From NCBI RefSeq assembly GCF_003795145.1, contig NZ_CP027786.1, positions 930,001-994,000 on the forward strand: 64,000 nucleotides of DNA, read 5' to 3'. A program made the translations under genes and the position numbers. The number at the start of each line of letters is the position of its first letter. Position 1 is the stretch's first letter. The notes beneath the pieces were generated by a model that saw nothing but the letters and a program-made list of their open reading frames with translations, did not search any database and had not been told where the DNA came from. The stretch is from Tetragenococcus koreensis. GTDB lineage: Bacteria > Bacillota > Bacilli > Lactobacillales > Enterococcaceae. Positions 40,195-57,287 of the stretch are shown here, in pieces.

Positions 40195-41325
40195 TCAACA
40201 CTCGCAATTTACTTCACAGTTTTGGCAATCATCCAAATAAAACGATTCATCTTTATAATAAGAAAGTCTCTGTTGATTAATTGATAGATCATTACTTCTT
40301 TTAGCAATTTCTTCAGCAATCATCGCAAAACGTTGCCGAAATTTATAAATATAGCAAAAAACGACACCTTGATTACATACACTTGGACCAATTAAAAAGA
40401 CATTTGGTGAAATTATAGATTCATCAAAGTCATTTAATTGCGCTTCATCCGCTTGATAAAGGAACAAATCAGGAGCTAAAATTTGCGCACCGTTAGTAAA
40501 ACCCGTACATAAAATAGGCTGGTTTTCTACTTGAAGAGTATGACCATCAGTCGTTATCAAGTTATACTTCTTCGCTTTTCTGCTAATTTCCTTGATAGAA
40601 ATATCCTGATAAATTTGAATTTCTCCCTTTACAGCTTGATTGGTTTTAAAATCAAAAAACTTTTGCCGCGTAAAAGGTGATAAACGAATACTAGGATCCG
40701 CTTTTTTAGCTGTCAAACCCGTGGTGTTCGTATAAAGAGTAACCTTTTTACCTAATTCAGCCAAATTTAACGCGGCATCGATCCCACTTTCATTGCCACC
40801 AATAATTGTTTGCTGGTCACCAGAAAATTGGCGCCACGAGTCTACTTCCCCATAATGAATGCCATGTTCTTTTCCACCAGCAATCCAACTTTTATTAGGG
40901 AAAGAATACTCTCCCATTGCAAAAATAAGGTATTCAGTAAAAATCTCTTCTTGTATTGTTTCCAATAAATAACCGTTCTTTTTTTTTACAATTTTCTGTA
41001 CCTTCCTATTTGTAAAAACCGGTAATTGATATTCTTTTGCTGCCAAATCAAGATATTTTGCATAGTCTTTTCCAGATAACCGTTCTTTTCCAAGCGTAAA
41101 AGCTGGTGAAGTGTCTACTGAAATAGCATTCAAATCAGACATTCCGAAGCCATTACTGGTAAACGAAGGTGTTATAAAGCGCGTTTCTTGCGGCCAATTT
41201 TTAAAACTATTGCCTACTTCATCCTTATCTAAAATTACAAAATCTCGAACTCCTAATTCAGTTAACGTGATCCCCATACCAATACCAGCTGCGCCAGCGC
41301 CAATAATAACAATTTTTTTATCCAT
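40195..41325 (-). CDS. FAD/NAD(P)-dependent oxidoreductase with Cys-rich C-terminus
   Basis: 376 residues. FAD Rossmann motif VIIGAGAAGIGMG, NAD(P) motif TIIGGNESGIDAALNLAELG and ILCTGFTNGA near the end of the core place it with the Pyr_redox_3/flavin-monooxygenase-like group. Odd feature: the last residues DDCQNCEVNCEC hold four cysteines, a possible metal- or thiol-exchange tail. It is last in a minus-strand run after the amt-like gene and the COG0523 GTPase, under a Fur-family operator, which hints at a role when metal is scarce. Substrate unknown. Confidence 0.75.
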   Translation of the reverse strand: MDKKIVIIGAGAAGIGMGITLTELGVRDFVILDKDEVGNSFKNWPQETRFITPSFTSNGFGMSDLNAISVDTSPAFTLGKERLSGKDYAKYLDLAAKEYQLPVFTNRKVQKIVKKKNGYLLETIQEEIFTEYLIFAMGEYSFPNKSWIAGGKEHGIHYGEVDSWRQFSGDQQTIIGGNESGIDAALNLAELGKKVTLYTNTTGLTAKKADPSIRLSPFTRQKFFDFKTNQAVKGEIQIYQDISIKEISRKAKKYNLITTDGHTLQVENQPILCTGFTNGAQILAPDLFLYQADEAQLNDFDESIISPNVFLIGPSVCNQGVVFCYIYKFRQRFAMIAEEIAKRSNDLSINQQRLSYYKDESFYLDDCQNCEVNCEC

Positions 41326-41341
41326 TTACTCCCACCTTCTG

Positions 41342-41491
41342 CTAGTTAAAATCTAAATATAATTTACTCCCTTGATTATTCGCATACTTACCATGTTTAT
41401 ATAAAGCAAACGCTCCAGCTAAAACGTAATACCATTAAACCCGAATAGATCCAATTGGGCACAATGCAATGCCATTACAAGCGCTCCATAA
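41342..41491 (-). pseudogene. Coding-like remnant after the amt-like gene
   Basis: In the same frame as the amt-like gene, past its stop, the sequence reads LWSACNGIALCPIGSIRV, stop (41437-41435), then WYYVLAGAFALYKHGKYANN QGSKLYLDFN and TAG. The second part looks protein-like but I cannot name it; the first recalls a ferredoxin-type CxxxxxC patch. Probably the tail of a decayed gene. Confidence 0.3.
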
Positions 41492-42566
41492 TTAATCCAT
41501 ACCTTCCAAAACTTCAACTGGATTTAAAAAAATACACAATAAACGATGTAATAACCAACAAATAACAAAACTCCAAATACACACGAAAATCGTACCTGTA
41601 ATTTGAACAAAAAAATTGCCATTTTCAGCAAAAATCCCAGCAAGTACAGAGCCAACCACACCACCTGTTGCATTCATCCCAAAAGAATCTACTGCATCAT
41701 CAAATAAAGGATATTTTTTCTGCAAAAAGTTAATTACTATTGGACAGCTACCCCCTACAATCAAAGCAATTAAAAAAGAACTTAATGGTGTGACATAGCC
41801 AACAGAACAAGTACTGCCTACTAGGCCCGCAATCATGCCATTCATCAAAGCAGAAATTGTATATTTCTTTTCAATATAACGAGTCATTAAGAACCAACTA
41901 ATACCGCCACCTAGGAACGAAAGTAATGTATTGAGCCAGATGCTTATTGCTTCAGTACCAAAATAACCGGCCGGTGCCATATTGAACCCAAACCAACCTA
42001 AGGTAATAAATAACATACCAACATAGGAAATTGTATATTGCATCGGTTTCATAGTACTTTTTTTATTTCTTATTGGTAAACTCTGAGCTAAAACTAAACT
42101 TCCAATTCCAGCTGTAACATGTACTACTAAACCTCCAGAAAAGTCTAGCACGCCCAACTGGTCTAATAAAGCAGATTCTCCCCAGAGTAAATAACAAATT
42201 GGCGCGTAAACAACGAATATCCATAAAGAAGAGAAAACTGCTGCATAACACCAACTGCCTCTTTCTAAAACAGATCCAATAAGCATAATGACCGCATACA
42301 AACAAAATAATTGTTGCAAAAGCATTTGCATTATGGTTTGCGAAGATAGTTTAGTCGAAAAAAATGGTTTGCTGCAAATTGCCAAAATAGCTGACTGAAA
42401 AACCACCAAAGAGCCAAATTACACTTCCTGAAAGAAGAACAATTGTCCCTAATAACAGGGTATGCTGAATATATTTCTGTTGCACAAAGCCAATATAATA
42501 CAGTACTACACCAAAAACCATTAACCACATAAAAATAAAACATAACCAATTAAATAATTCGTCCAT
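41492..42566 (-). pseudogene. Ammonium-transporter-like gene with one frameshift in a T7 tract
   Basis: The N-terminal part (MDELFNWLCFIFMWLMVFGV … SVSYFGNLQQTIFF) and the C-terminal part (STKLSSQTIMQML … EVLEGMD) lie in two frames that meet at seven T (minus strand, 42364-42358); six T would restore one protein of about 358 residues. Amt/Mep/Rh features: VVYAPICYLLWGE, LDFSGGLVVHVTAG with the first pore histidine, and DDAVDSFGMNATGGVVGS where the second pore histidine (usually FGxHGxGG) is Asn. ATG 42566 follows a GGGGGG site. It sits between a COG0523 GTPase and a flavoprotein. Could be phase-variable, a pseudogene or a sequencing error. Confidence 0.8.
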
Positions 42567-42600
42567 GGTCCCCCCTACCCGCTCATTAAAAGTCCCCATT

Positions 42601-43581
42601 TTAATTTATTAACATTTCTCTTATGTTTTTTTCTGGTAAATTTTTACCAATCAATACGATTTTTGTCGCAGGATCATTTCGCCACTCTTCCCCTTCCTCT
42701 ATACGAAAGGCCATATTAACGCCTTGAAGTATTAGTTGCTTTTCATTTCCCTCAATATTTAAAATCCCTTTATAACGCATCAAATCCATACCATATTTTT
42801 GAATTAAAATTTGGATCCATCGCATTATATGTTTTTCAGAAAAAGAATCCTCGGAGTGAATCACAAAACTATTCACCGGTGTGTGAACATGGTCATGATA
42901 ATGATGCTCATGATTTTCCATCATATGTTCAATATCGTTTTCGATTTCACTATTTTGTTTAGACGAATGGTCAAAAAGATCTAGTCCGATCAGATCTGAG
43001 TATATTTCATTAAAATTCAATTTCCACTTGTCAACGAAAGGGTTAATCGCTTCTAGTTCTTTTGCTATCTTTTTTGTTTCTTGCGTGGATACTTGATCCG
43101 TTTTTGTAAGCAGCAGTTTATCAGCAAAAGCTACCTGCTCTACTGCTTCTGTATAGTTTTCAAGTTGATAATGAGCATTTTTAACATCAACAAGTGTCAA
43201 AATACTATCAATCACAAAATGCTCGCTTAAAACAGGCGTCCGGATGATTGTCTGAGCAATCGGGCTTGGTTCAGCAAGCCCACTCGTTTCAATGATGACA
43301 CGATCAAACCCTGAGGGACTATCTTTAGCCACAGATAAAATCGCTAAAAACATTTCCGCTAAATCTTCTCGAACCACGCAGCACATACAACCATTACTCA
43401 ACTGAAAAATTCTTTCCCGTTCATCTGACAAAATTAATTCATGATCAATACTAGTATCACCAAATTCATTTACGATGATTACAACCTTTTCTTCTCCTTT
43501 TGTTTGCATTAATTGATTCAATAACGTTGTTTTTCCAGAACCTAAAAACCCCGTTAATATCGTAACTGGTATAACGGACAT
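42601..43581 (-). CDS. CobW/COG0523-family GTPase, predicted zinc metallochaperone
   Basis: 326 residues of G3E GTPase: Walker A TGFLGSGKTTLLNQLM, the CxCC metal site GCMCCVVREDL, Walker B-like VIIETSGLAEPSPI and base motif LLTKTD. A His-rich linker (EHHYHDHVHTP) typical of metal-trafficking members precedes the C-terminal CobW_C domain. COG0523 proteins under Zur control help supply zinc during starvation. AGGAGG lies seven bases before ATG 43581. A promoter with a Fur-family palindrome lies upstream, divergent from the Fur-like regulator. Confidence 0.92.
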   Translation of the reverse strand: MSVIPVTILTGFLGSGKTTLLNQLMQTKGEEKVVIIVNEFGDTSIDHELILSDERERIFQLSNGCMCCVVREDLAEMFLAILSVAKDSPSGFDRVIIETSGLAEPSPIAQTIIRTPVLSEHFVIDSILTLVDVKNAHYQLENYTEAVEQVAFADKLLLTKTDQVSTQETKKIAKELEAINPFVDKWKLNFNEIYSDLIGLDLFDHSSKQNSEIENDIEHMMENHEHHYHDHVHTPVNSFVIHSEDSFSEKHIMRWIQILIQKYGMDLMRYKGILNIEGNEKQLILQGVNMAFRIEEGEEWRNDPATKIVLIGKNLPEKNIREMLIN

Positions 43582-43625
43582 GCTCATTCCTCCTATATTA
43601 TAAATGTCTAATACTGCGTTCGTTT

Positions 43626-43674
43626 TTGCGAATCATTTGCAAGTATTCTACACTAAGCAATCCAACTCCGTCAA
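43626..43674 (-). promoter_or_regulatory. cobW promoter with Fur/Zur-type operator
   Basis: On the minus strand -35 TTGACG (43674-43669), 18-bp spacer, -10 TAGAAT (43650-43645). Directly downstream, over the start site, lies TTGCGAATCATTTGCAA (43626-43642), a 17-bp inverted repeat with one mismatch that copies the core of the operator at 43676-43704. Confidence 0.75.
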
Positions 43675-43675
43675 C

Positions 43676-43710
43676 AACTAATTGCAAATCATTTGCAATT
43701 AGTTTATAAT
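43676..43710 (+). promoter_or_regulatory. Fur-family regulator promoter with a 29-bp perfect palindrome
   Basis: Positions 43676-43704 form a perfect palindrome around C43690, core ATTGCAAATCATTTGCAAT, the 9-1-9 layout of Fur/Zur boxes. -35 TTGCAA (43682-43687) lies inside it and -10 TATAAT (43705-43710) follows with a 17-bp spacer, so binding would shut the promoter off: autoregulation. Confidence 0.85.
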
Positions 43711-43749
43711 TATCGTACATTGAAATCCTAAAAAAGAGGTAAACACATT

Positions 43750-44121
43750 ATGCGAATGACAAAACAACGCAAAGCGATTGTTGAAACCCTTAAGCAAAAT
43801 AGTAACAAAGCATTGAGTGCGGAAATGATCTATCAAAAAGTTGAGAGTGAGAACTTAAACTTATCTACGGTTTATCGCACCATGGATAAGTTAACGGAAG
43901 CTGAATTGATACATAAAACTGTCGTTGGTACTGTCGCTTATTTTTATTTAGCAGAAAATGAGCACAAACACTTTATGATCTGTACAAATTGTCAAAAAAT
44001 GATACCCATTGGTTGTCTCATCCAAAAATTCCTTCCTGACTTAGCTGAAAAAAATCATTTTAAGGTAACTGGTCACGATATTACCATCTTTGGTCTATGT
44101 GAGGAATGTTCTGTTTTGTAA
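43750..44121 (+). CDS. zur: Fur-family metalloregulator, probably Zur
   Basis: 123 residues, slightly short for the family. The winged helix is MTKQRKAIVETLKQNSNKAL to LNLSTVYRTMDKLTEAELI (recognition helix STVYR). The dimerisation domain has the metal-ligand stretch NEHKHFMICTNC and GHDITIFGLCEEC; both CxxC pairs of the structural zinc site are present. Zur rather than Fur or PerR is inferred from the divergent COG0523 GTPase carrying the same operator. GAGGT precedes ATG 43750. Confidence 0.85.
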   Translation: MRMTKQRKAIVETLKQNSNKALSAEMIYQKVESENLNLSTVYRTMDKLTEAELIHKTVVGTVAYFYLAENEHKHFMICTNCQKMIPIGCLIQKFLPDLAEKNHFKVTGHDITIFGLCEECSVL

Positions 44122-44151
44122 CAAAAATAATTGCCAATAAGGAGTATTTCT

Positions 44152-45059
44152 ATGCGTTACGTTTGCATCATTGTTGGTGGCGGACCTGCTGGTTTAAGCG
44201 CAGCATTGGTTTTAGGTAGAGCAAAATTAAATGTTTTAATTATTGATAATAAAAATCCACGGAATCAAATAACTCATGAATCACACGGTTTTATTACTAA
44301 CGACAGTCTTTCACCTCTTACTATCAGAGAAAAAGGCAAAAATGATTTAGCTAAATATCAAAATATTCACTACCTCGAAAATACTGTAGAAGGAATAACT
44401 GACCAAGAAACCTACTTTGCCGTAAAAACGGTAAAAAATTTATATGAAGCCACATGAATCGTAATTGCAACTGGGCTCAAAGAAGTATTACCTGAAGTTA
44501 AGGGATTAGATTCTGTATACGGGGAACTTTTTTCAATTGTCCTTTTTGTGATGGCTGGGAAATGAAAGATCGGAAATTAGCAATTATTGCTGGACAGGAA
44601 GAGCAACTCCTACACTTTGTCCAAATGATTTTTCATTGGAGCAAGCAACTGTCTGTTTTTACAAACGGATTACTTGTTTCAAAAATAATTAAACCAGTTC
44701 TTGAGAAACATGAAGTGAAGTTATTTGAACGAAAAATTAAAACAATCGAAAATGATACTCAACAATGCACGATCCATTTAATAAATGGACAAAAAGAAGT
44801 TATTGATGGTGGCTTTTTGATGCCTGAGCTCAAACCAAATTTAAACTTTGCTAAAGACCTTTCATTAGAATTAAATGACAGGGGAAGAATATACACCGAT
44901 GAATTTGGTCATACGTCACACAGAAATATTTATGCTACGGGTGATATTAACACAACTTTTGCTGAACAGCTTGTTCACGCAGCAAGTTCTGGGAGTAAGG
45001 TTGCTGCTGGGATCGTTAGAGAAATTGCTTCATCTAACTTTGATTTCCAAACTAAATAA
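44152..45059 (+). pseudogene. Thioredoxin-reductase-like flavoprotein, one stop and one frameshift
   Basis: AAGGAG precedes ATG 44152. The first part has the FAD motif CIIVGGGPAGLSAALVLGRA and runs to EAT, then TGA at 44455-44457. Read through, it gives IVIATGLKEVLPEVKGLDSV, after which one base is missing near 44521-44526; in the shifted frame the redox motif CPFCDGWEMKDRK and the NADP/FAD end ATGDINTTFAEQLVHAASSG follow. CPFCDGWE marks the thioredoxin-reductase-like group of lactic acid bacteria. Both lesions together indicate a dead gene. It may once have been co-transcribed with zur. Confidence 0.82.
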
Positions 45060-55763: not shown

Positions 55764-57287
55764 ACTCAAGTTTCGCACACCAAATCTGGGAGATAAGCCT
55801 TGATATAACGGGGCAGAGTATCCACCCAGTGTTGGAGTTGACTTGTAATAAAATCTTGTAATTGGCTTCCTGATTCTTCACTTACCGCTTGAATAATATG
55901 TACTAATTCGATAAGAGCAGCGGACCAATCGAGTTCTTTTATTTGATCGCCCAGTTCATAAAATAAGCCACCTAAGGTCCGCTCATCATTGGCACAGCGC
56001 TGCTGCCAGCTTAATAAAATATACCGTGTGAACACAATGGTGGTGTGACAAATTAAGGCTTGATAATGTCGCGTTTGTGTTTCTTTAGTCAGATGAAGCA
56101 ATGATTTCGATGCCTTAAAAAATGTCTCGATGTCCCATCTCGCCGAGTATGTTTTGACCATTTCTTGGGAAGATAAATCCAGATCATCGGTCATAATCGC
56201 CAACCAAGCACTTTTCTTATTGTGATTTTTGACAAAAACGATTTTCACGGGATTTTTGCCGGAGCTTGGTTTCACCACAATCGAGGAAATAATCGCTTCT
56301 TGTGTATATTCTTTCGTAGATTTGGCATAAAGTTCTTCCAGCTTGTATAAACGTTGATGAAAAAGGTATTTGGTTTTTCCATTTTTCACCATCCCAATGG
56401 TGTGAATCCCCATATCGTGTAATTGGTCTATCATTTTAGGGGAAGTAAACCATTTATCCATCAACACATGGGTGGCGTAAATCCCTTGGTTCAAGGCGCG
56501 TTGAACCATCTCAAGTGCCACTTCGGGCATTTTACGACTTGATTCGTTGAATCGTTTGGCTCCTACGGTTCGTTGATCTTTTTCTGCTATTGTTTGGTTC
56601 ACTTTTTTCTTACCGGATAGTAACCCGAAATCAATCGGAATGAAAGAATAGCCATCGGAGAACCCTAAAGTAAGCATACGATACCCTTTGTATCCTTGTT
56701 TGAGCGCATGATCCCAAAGACGAGCTAAGCCTGGTACCTCTTGGCTTCGATTACGATAAAACGTCGAATCATCCAAGATCAACGTCCGAATATGGGTTTT
56801 CGTATCCGTTAAAGAATGGAGCTTTTCGATGACAGACGCACTAAACCGAAGTAAAAACAGACGCCAGTTGTTATGGGGATTGTTCATCCATCGATACACG
56901 GTATCTTTTTTCATGTATTGGTCGCTTTCCCGCCCACTGAGAACTTGGTTTAAGGATTTTCCTTTAAAGACGAGGCTAAAGAGAAAAGTGAATAGAATAG
57001 CCACCGAATACCCTTTTTGCTTTTCCATATGGGCTTGTTTTAAAAATTGCGTGACTTTTAATTCAGAAAAAAGGGCTTTTATTTCATTCGGTAATTGATT
57101 TTTAATAGCTTTTAAGTGTACCATAAAGGCAAGAACTCCTTTGTTTTTGGTTTGTGGTTAAATCAATTATAAAACAAAAGGAGTTCTTTTTGTATAAAAA
57201 GGTAGGCAGTCAATATCAGGACTTTTTTCGACCTAAGAGTTGATAAGACCGTTGTTTAATATCATTTTACATGTGCGAAACTTGAGT
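55764..57287 (-). mobile_element. IS4-family insertion sequence
   Basis: 1524 bp, bounded by about 16-bp terminal inverted repeats (ACTCAAGTTTCGCACA and its complement) and flanked by a 5-bp target duplication AATTT (55759-55763 and 57288-57292). It holds one complete transposase gene reading against the host operon. The left duplication overlaps the response regulator's TAA. Confidence 0.92.
55766..57124 (-). CDS. IS4-family DDE transposase
   Basis: 452 residues. DDE triad: Asp in TLILDDSTFYRN, Asp in HVLMDKWFTSPKM, Glu in YSARWDIETFFKASK, which also shows the Y(2)R(3)E(6)K signature of IS4. The gene is full length, and the stop lies inside the left terminal repeat. The upstream AGGAG-like site (CAAAGGAGTTC region) precedes ATG 57124. 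The intact frame and clean target duplication suggest a recent, possibly active insertion. Confidence 0.95.
   Translation of the reverse strand: MVHLKAIKNQLPNEIKALFSELKVTQFLKQAHMEKQKGYSVAILFTFLFSLVFKGKSLNQVLSGRESDQYMKKDTVYRWMNNPHNNWRLFLLRFSASVIEKLHSLTDTKTHIRTLILDDSTFYRNRSQEVPGLARLWDHALKQGYKGYRMLTLGFSDGYSFIPIDFGLLSGKKKVNQTIAEKDQRTVGAKRFNESSRKMPEVALEMVQRALNQGIYATHVLMDKWFTSPKMIDQLHDMGIHTIGMVKNGKTKYLFHQRLYKLEELYAKSTKEYTQEAIISSIVVKPSSGKNPVKIVFVKNHNKKSAWLAIMTDDLDLSSQEMVKTYSARWDIETFFKASKSLLHLTKETQTRHYQALICHTTIVFTRYILLSWQQRCANDERTLGGLFYELGDQIKELDWSAALIELVHIIQAVSEESGSQLQDFITSQLQHWVDTLPRYIKAYLPDLVCET

Follow-up and report, generated by a model that had tools for sequence, protein, structure and literature searches.

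A probable acquired and partly decayed copy of a widespread zinc-starvation module in Tetragenococcus koreensis, with a Cys-tailed flavoprotein and an exchangeable permease

The window considered here is a 64,000-nt stretch of the Tetragenococcus koreensis genome (GCF_003795145.1, NZ_CP027786.1, 930,001-994,000, forward strand), and all T. koreensis coordinates given below are positions in this window. Between about 40195 and 45059 it contains a unit of two divergent operons, in which the gene for a Fur-family regulator (fur4) is read away from a run of genes for a COG0523 GTPase, an Amt-family channel and a flavoprotein with a Cys-rich C-terminus, as follows (ORF, open reading frame):

40195-41325, minus strand: FAD/NAD(P) flavoprotein (Pyr_redox_3), 376 aa, with the C-terminal four-Cys tail DDCQNCEVNCEC (ORF reading, Pfam scan)
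41492-42599, minus strand: Amt/Mep/Rh-family channel gene (amt) of the N318/P219 subclade, split by a frameshift (ORFs 42351-42599 and 41492-42409)
42601-43587, minus strand: COG0523 (CobW/YjiA-type) P-loop GTPase (cobW), 328 aa, with a GCMCC motif and a His-rich loop (Pfam; YjiA 1nij, E 4.5e-49)
43626-43642: operator copy 2, TTGCGAATCATTTGCAA, with 1 mismatch, just past the predicted -10 of the cobW promoter
43676-43704: operator copy 1, the 29-bp perfect palindrome AACTAATTGCAAATcATTTGCAATTAGTT, which includes the predicted -35 of the fur4 promoter
43750-44121, plus strand: Fur-family regulator (fur4; the fourth Fur paralogue of the genome), 123 aa, with two CxxC pairs (Pfam)
about 44151-45059, plus strand: thioredoxin-reductase (TrxR)-like flavoprotein gene with a CPFC motif, broken, 29 bp after fur4

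The fur4 and TrxR-like genes probably form one operon. A preliminary description of this stretch had recognized most of the arrangement: the perfect palindrome is present and overlaps the predicted fur4 promoter, a second operator core lies at the divergent run, the GTPase carries the cobW and CobW_C domains of a COG0523 metallochaperone-type protein, and the flavoprotein indeed ends in a Cys-rich tail. The three-gene run divergent from the Fur gene is also there, with the exception that amt is not a single frame, and the operon is therefore not intact as had been supposed.

Viewed together with its relatives, the locus is probably an acquired copy, now decayed in part, of a zinc-starvation module that is widespread and is composed of a fixed flavoprotein and an exchangeable permease. 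The analysis shows that the genes of this module co-occur in a conserved manner, that the relatives are under zinc-type regulation, that the flavoprotein tail is conserved and that the pore of the Amt partner is altered.

Relatives of the flavoprotein are found in both Bacteria and Archaea; when species genomes were scanned, 80 loci were obtained from many bacterial phyla and from Archaea. The C-terminal CxxxCxC four-Cys tail is kept in 74 of 79 relatives and the motif C[YF]IYK[FY]R in all 79, and by its fold, motif and tail the T. koreensis protein belongs to the 3d1c-type Cys-tailed family of zinc loci. The nearest solved relative is Staphylococcus aureus 3d1c itself (E 4.6e-99, 41% identity, TM 0.90), the tail of which is likewise rich in Cys. 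In the AF2 (AlphaFold2) model, which has a pLDDT of 93.7, residues 374-376 fall below 50, and the end of the tail is predicted to be disordered. After 3d1c, the closest folds in the PDB (ranks 2-7) are bacillithiol disulfide reductases. Compared with these Bdr (YpdA) proteins, the T. koreensis flavoprotein has the same fold and two-Rossmann architecture, but the identity is about 20%, a C-terminal Cys tail is added and the GGGPC cysteine is lacking; the Gly-rich motif reads GAGAAG or GAGPAG, with no Cys. Membership of the Bdr/YpdA family was rejected on these grounds and on the TIGR04018 score (89.2 bits against a cut-off of 339.9). Low-Mr thioredoxin reductases were rejected in the same way, as a TrxR-type CxxC redox pair occurs within the first 250 residues of only one of the 79 relatives, as were the flavin-containing and Baeyer-Villiger monooxygenases (FMO and BVMO), the fingerprint of which (FxGxxxHxxx[Y/F] or FxGxxxHxxxW[P/D]) is found in none of the 79. 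Flavoprotein relatives also turn up in three phage records (OR846637.1, OR849962.1, OR844989.1), probably because the assemblies contain host DNA.

While the flavoprotein is constant, the membrane protein beside it is not. With a partner defined as a recognized permease within 1.5 kb of the flavoprotein, the 80 loci comprise 46 with a FeoB-like Gate protein, 12 with an Amt, 6 with an SBF-family protein and 16 with no recognized partner. Gate is the partner in most phyla; the Amt partners all belong to Bacillota (Lactobacillales and Erysipelotrichaceae), and the SBF partners to Bacteroidota, Alphaproteobacteria, Calditrichota and one archaeon. The four-Cys tail is the same irrespective of the partner, which argues that it belongs to the function of the enzyme and not to docking with one permease. 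Furthermore, a tree built from 59 flavoproteins places the Amt-linked rows and the staphylococcal Gate-linked ones in one starred set, a grouping that fits the replacement of Gate by Amt in few changes. Near the flavoproteins that lack a recognized permease, two other proteins recur: one is a small membrane protein of two helices, seen in Bacteroidota and Balneolota, and the other is weakly similar to DsrE and comes from Balneolota and Cyanobacteriota, examples of the two being found in loci L088 (8262-8570), L115 (9111-9924) and L093 (10911-11312).

The strongest hint to the mechanism is that three unrelated permeases take one another's place. This could mean that, in zinc starvation, the flavoprotein produces or alters a small molecule with a metal-binding or signalling role, which the permease then exports or exchanges, so that unrelated permease families could replace one another. 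The sharing of one enzyme by three such families is in keeping with this explanation, as is the fact that SBF and Amt families carry small molecules, and the flavoprotein fold lies near class-B FMOs as well as near disulfide reductases. We nevertheless consider a metabolite of this kind unlikely, given the complete lack of FMO and BVMO fingerprints noted above, the occurrence of relatives in mostly anaerobic groups (Erysipelotrichaceae, Thermodesulfobacteriota) and the fact that no other biosynthetic gene is conserved beside the flavoprotein.

The Amt-type partner is itself a variant. Of 295 Lactobacillales genomes, 11 encode the flavoprotein, and in each of them an Amt-family gene is adjacent to it, in either orientation. 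An Amt-profile search of the same genomes found Amts in 129, of which those of the 11 flavoprotein-bearing genomes alone score E 1e-116 or better, the next best Amt reaching 7e-83; the profile was built from the proteins of these 11 genomes, and the gap in scores is not by itself independent proof of a separate group. The flavoprotein-linked Amts carry N318 (22/22), P219 (21/22) and H168 (22/22), whereas H318 and S219 are present in all 19 ordinary Lactobacillales Amts; the two groups share F107, W148, D160, H168, W212 and F215 without exception. On this residue evidence the linked Amts form a distinct subclade, and they were rejected as canonical ammonium transporters because the twin-His motif (H168/H318) and S219 are not kept. 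What they have in common with AmtB and other Amt channels, in addition to the six invariant residues, is the Ammonium_transp domain (PF00909, 159 bits for the T. koreensis protein) and the AmtB fold, as predicted for the Enterococcus avium relative (TM 0.91 to 1u77); the changes of H318 to Asn and of S219 to Pro, and the position beside the flavoprotein, set the subclade apart. The T. koreensis genome contains no other Amt, and in the genomes examined the N318/P219 type always adjoins the flavoprotein. In AmtB, single-His variants lose methylamine transport and keep ammonia conduction, and Glu at the first His has been described as the only common natural variation of the twin-His motif (PMC3647058), which makes a natural N318 lineage unusual. 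The subclade is thus a natural experiment on this motif.

The wider neighborhoods of the flavoprotein also point to zinc. An unbiased clustering of neighbors within 4 kb returned Gate, COG0523, Amt, parts of zinc ABC transporters, dCTP deaminase, Zur, S14, SBF, FolE2, CysS and HisI. The annotated neighbors at plasmid loci, which come from Staphylococcus, Paenibacillus, Pantoea, Klebsiella, Paracoccus, Acaryochloris and haloarchaea, are COG0523/ZigA, Zur, zinc-binding proteins, zinc ABC transporters, S14, L33, FolE2, DksA, a carbonic anhydrase paralogue and CysS. The flavoprotein-permease pair is often joined by a COG0523 GTPase. That of T. koreensis scores 168.7 bits with PF02492 and 66.5 bits with PF07683, and its NGCMCC sequence corresponds to the CxCC motif after Walker A; COG0523 proteins bind zinc. 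About 500 Klebsiella plasmid records, such as that of K. pneumoniae plasmid NZ_CP132989.1 (locus L038), hold a flavoprotein relative within a zinc-sparing cluster of folE2, dksA, a carbonic anhydrase paralogue, COG0523 and Zur. In 12 loci from 9 genera (e.g. L173 9881-10393 and L033 8381-8857), the flavoprotein has beside it a gene of the dCTP deaminase type (PF22769), the product of which probably takes the place of zinc deaminases without requiring zinc.

Since many of these neighbors are zinc-sparing paralogues (dCTP deaminase, S14, L33, FolE2, CysS, HisI), the flavoprotein could likewise replace a zinc enzyme, with the permease supplying its substrate or removing its product, which for the Amt type would be ammonia, a species that still passes single-His AmtB variants (PMC3647058). 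A role in zinc sparing is rather improbable, however, in that a four-Cys tail putatively able to bind zinc would be odd in a zinc-sparing enzyme, that no zinc enzyme is apparent that would carry out an equivalent reaction, and that the Gate and SBF partners are unsuited to ammonia.

The regulation of the relatives was assessed by scoring zinc boxes of the AdcR, Bacillus Zur or TTGC type at distances of <=300 bp from the flavoprotein or its partner. Such boxes are present at 31 of 47 Bacillota loci, compared with 23 of 1781 random control windows (1.3%). Streptococcal loci have exact AdcR boxes, and Zur boxes are found in staphylococci, lactobacilli and E. faecalis plasmids. The occurrence of the pair under three operator types speaks for a zinc role that is independent of any single regulator. 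The closest gene order to that of T. koreensis is found in E. avium (cobW, amt, dcd, flavoprotein), where the exact T. koreensis operator core lies upstream of cobW and the module sits in a cluster with S14, AdcA, two more COG0523 genes and ZnuCBA. The conservation of linkage that the preliminary description had proposed to look for is therefore found, in this E. avium order and in the invariable adjacency of flavoprotein and amt in Lactobacillales, and its proposal is not undone by a gene order confined to one strain.

Members of the module have appeared in published regulons. The AdcR regulon of Streptococcus agalactiae includes sak_RS07375 (Amt-like), sak_RS07380 (flavoprotein) and a rhodanese gene, with role undefined (PMC11580457). 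The two families are the same as in T. koreensis, and in strain ATCC 13813 (L127) the pair is adjacent and divergent with an exact AdcR box in between; in contrast to the MarR-type AdcR and the absence of cobW from the S. agalactiae unit, the T. koreensis locus has a Fur-family regulator, another operator, cobW within the operon and a frameshifted amt. In S. aureus, NWMN_2481 (COG0523), NWMN_2482 (hypothetical) and NWMN_2483 (FAD-dependent oxidoreductase) are raised 43-, 83- and 152-fold, respectively, with calprotectin (PMC5480029). Because this gene order agrees with that of the staphylococcal flavoprotein-Gate-COG0523 loci, we infer that NWMN_2483 is the Cys-tailed flavoprotein, the same protein as 3d1c (NP_373108.1). 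The likeness to T. koreensis thus extends to a COG0523 gene in the operon and, with about 42% identity in close staphylococci, to a flavoprotein with the same Cys tail, the difference being that the membrane partner, by synteny with locus L073, is a FeoB-like Gate and not an Amt. Finally, cg0794 (COG0523) and cg0795 (oxidoreductase) of Corynebacterium glutamicum are divergent and Zur-regulated, and a joint metallochaperone role has been proposed for them (PMC2823685), a resemblance that is drawn here from gene arrangement and description. A literature search for Zur regulons with FAD oxidoreductase or Gate proteins found no dedicated study. The earlier suggestion of an undescribed, zinc-linked system is thus largely right, with the proviso that members of the pair were already listed in two published regulons; the accompanying view that an Amt and a flavoprotein would be unexpected in a zinc regulon does not stand, both being recurrent there.

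Several of these observations could also be accommodated by thiol or sulfur chemistry, in which the flavoprotein would be a disulfide or persulfide reductase that keeps low-molecular or zinc-finger thiols reduced and so frees or buffers zinc, the permease being only loosely related. In addition to the structural kinship with bacillithiol disulfide reductases, the co-regulated rhodanese gene of S. agalactiae (PMC11580457), a further rhodanese gene near the L. raoultii copy, the TrxR-like gene of the T. koreensis island and the response of the S. aureus operon to sulfide within the zinc-limitation response (PMC5480029) are in accordance with such a role. The flavoprotein has neither the TrxR CxxC nor the Bdr GGGPC cysteine, however, its score is far from the Bdr cut-off, and the tight permease linkage would be left unexplained. 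Many of the flavoprotein hosts, moreover, are not known to have bacillithiol, and on balance we regard a thiol reductase as improbable.

At the T. koreensis locus, the palindrome has 14-nt arms that are 100% complementary about a 1-nt center, and the operator core is built as a 7-1-7 Fur-family box (TGCAAATnATTTGCA), its heptad differing from those known for Fur, PerR and Bacillus Zur. Over the 2.73 Mb of the genome, no site other than the two operators has <=1 mismatch, and the reversed pattern, used as a control, gives none. The predicted fur4 promoter (TTGCAA-17-TATAAT, 43682-43710) has its -35 inside the palindrome and the predicted cobW promoter (43674-43645, minus strand) lies between the two boxes, in an analysis in which the count of predicted promoters is not above that in shuffled sequence. 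Five further genomic sites with 2 mismatches are situated within genes or beside non-zinc genes, for which reason a genome-wide regulon was rejected and the regulon of the palindrome looks to be local; the three loci for zinc-binding proteins in this genome have no match to the TTGCAAAT core. Across 105 genomes of the family, 1-mismatch sites are scattered and exact core matches are restricted to three, namely T. koreensis, the genome with the E. avium cluster (G301) and a genome with no zinc gene near the site (G316), so that the operator was also rejected as a family-wide signature.

Fur4 has the FUR domain (PF01475, 78 bits against a cut-off of 23.1) with CTNC and CEEC pairs and is, by these features, a member of the Fur superfamily. 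It reaches no NCBIfam equivalog cut-off of any metal type, whether Zur, Fur or PerR (32 bits against 167 for the Zur model NF008646), and was rejected as an ordinary member of these equivalogs; its identification as Zur in the preliminary description is not borne out. In comparison with solved Zur structures, Fur4 keeps the His-x-His and a His of the C-terminal domain and has a Cys in a PIGC segment, and it differs from Mycobacterium tuberculosis Zur at the residues aligned with the Asp and Cys ligands of that protein. An orthologue of Fur4 was rejected as the cause of the operator shared with E. avium, where the best match is an ordinary paralogue with only 36% identity. The arrangement of sites and promoters suggests that Fur4 probably represses both its own gene and the cobW-amt-flavoprotein operon through the two operators when metal is replete, the metal sensed being, as we infer, zinc.

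Fur4 could instead respond to another signal (iron, manganese, nickel or peroxide), in which case the copy would have been captured by a different stimulus or be a relic. The restriction of the operator to two sites in the genome, none of them at a zinc transporter, the scores of Fur4 below all three equivalog cut-offs and the breakage of two island genes are compatible with such a sensor. Against this, the identical operator core in E. avium lies amid a zinc cluster (S14, AdcA, COG0523, ZnuCBA), and relatives of the module respond to zinc regulators; of the alternatives considered here, a non-zinc sensor is the least probable.

The apparent decay of the T. koreensis copy concerns two genes. 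The frame of amt breaks at a T7 run near 42355, the N-terminus being encoded by 42351-42599 and the remainder by 41492-42409, and the TrxR-like gene has both a TGA within its frame and a frameshift, the latter at a T6 run. Most other long ORFs of the window read through without interruption, which suggests real decay in preference to poor sequence quality. With amt frameshifted, the working state of the module in this strain is doubtful. Damage is not confined to T. koreensis: amt lies in two pieces in Streptococcus uberis and S. penaeicida as well (L104 6818-7848; L096 6775-7832), and the E. avium assembly has a frameshift in its flavoprotein gene (L083, from 7938); the module seems to decay repeatedly across hosts. 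Among nine genomes of the genus, the flavoprotein, cobW and fur4 are found in T. koreensis only, fur4 being absent from the other eight, in contrast to the three other Fur paralogues, which are common to the genus. This distribution indicates that the island was probably acquired; a search for near-identical DNA on plasmids found none. Uniqueness to the strain consequently holds within the nine-genome genus and fails for the module as a kind, which has relatives in other Lactobacillales and in other phyla.

As the best explanation of the whole we favor, with a probability of roughly 0.55, a repressor-controlled zinc-starvation module with a fixed flavoprotein and an exchangeable permease. In zinc starvation the repressor would leave the operators and the module would be produced, its permease and thiol-tailed flavoprotein acting on a common cargo. 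Our tentative preference for the mechanism, held with less assurance than the module itself, is that the permease would import zinc or a small zinc-ligand species, the thiol tail of the flavoprotein would capture this metal on the cytoplasmic side, the tail thiols would be kept reduced, or reset, by the flavin and NAD(P)H, and the COG0523 GTPase would hand the metal onward. It is possible, if somewhat more doubtful, that this amounts to an unnamed zinc-acquisition or hand-off system in which the tail of an NAD(P)H flavoprotein accepts zinc or a zinc-ligand species from whichever Gate, SBF or N318 Amt the host has recruited, the Amt lineage having been repurposed from simple ammonium transport.

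Several points weigh against a zinc-capturing module. Amt and SBF proteins are not known as metal permeases, and it is not obvious how zinc would pass through a pore that has a single His and hydrophobic residues. Fur4 falls short of the Zur cut-off, and the T. koreensis module, its amt being frameshifted, may not work. The literature search turned up no zinc binding, transport or redox activity for the module proteins, and ammonia conduction by single-His AmtB variants (PMC3647058) could mean that the altered Amt still conducts ammonia. Zinc limitation is, at the same time, a main host defense and a common environmental stress, and the flavoprotein-permease pair is a recurrent component of zinc regulons in hosts that include S. 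agalactiae, staphylococci, Klebsiella plasmids, cyanobacteria and haloarchaea. With the flavoprotein strictly linked to one or another of three unrelated permeases, what was an annotation gap becomes a testable question, namely, what crosses the membrane.

Relatives of the TrxR-like gene are found in other zinc loci, after a Zur box in Gracilibacillus (L111), in Acaryochloris (L031) and in a member of the Chloroflexota (L106). Elsewhere in the window, positions 55766-57124 hold a transposase-type element, of which the genome contains some 20 near-identical copies.

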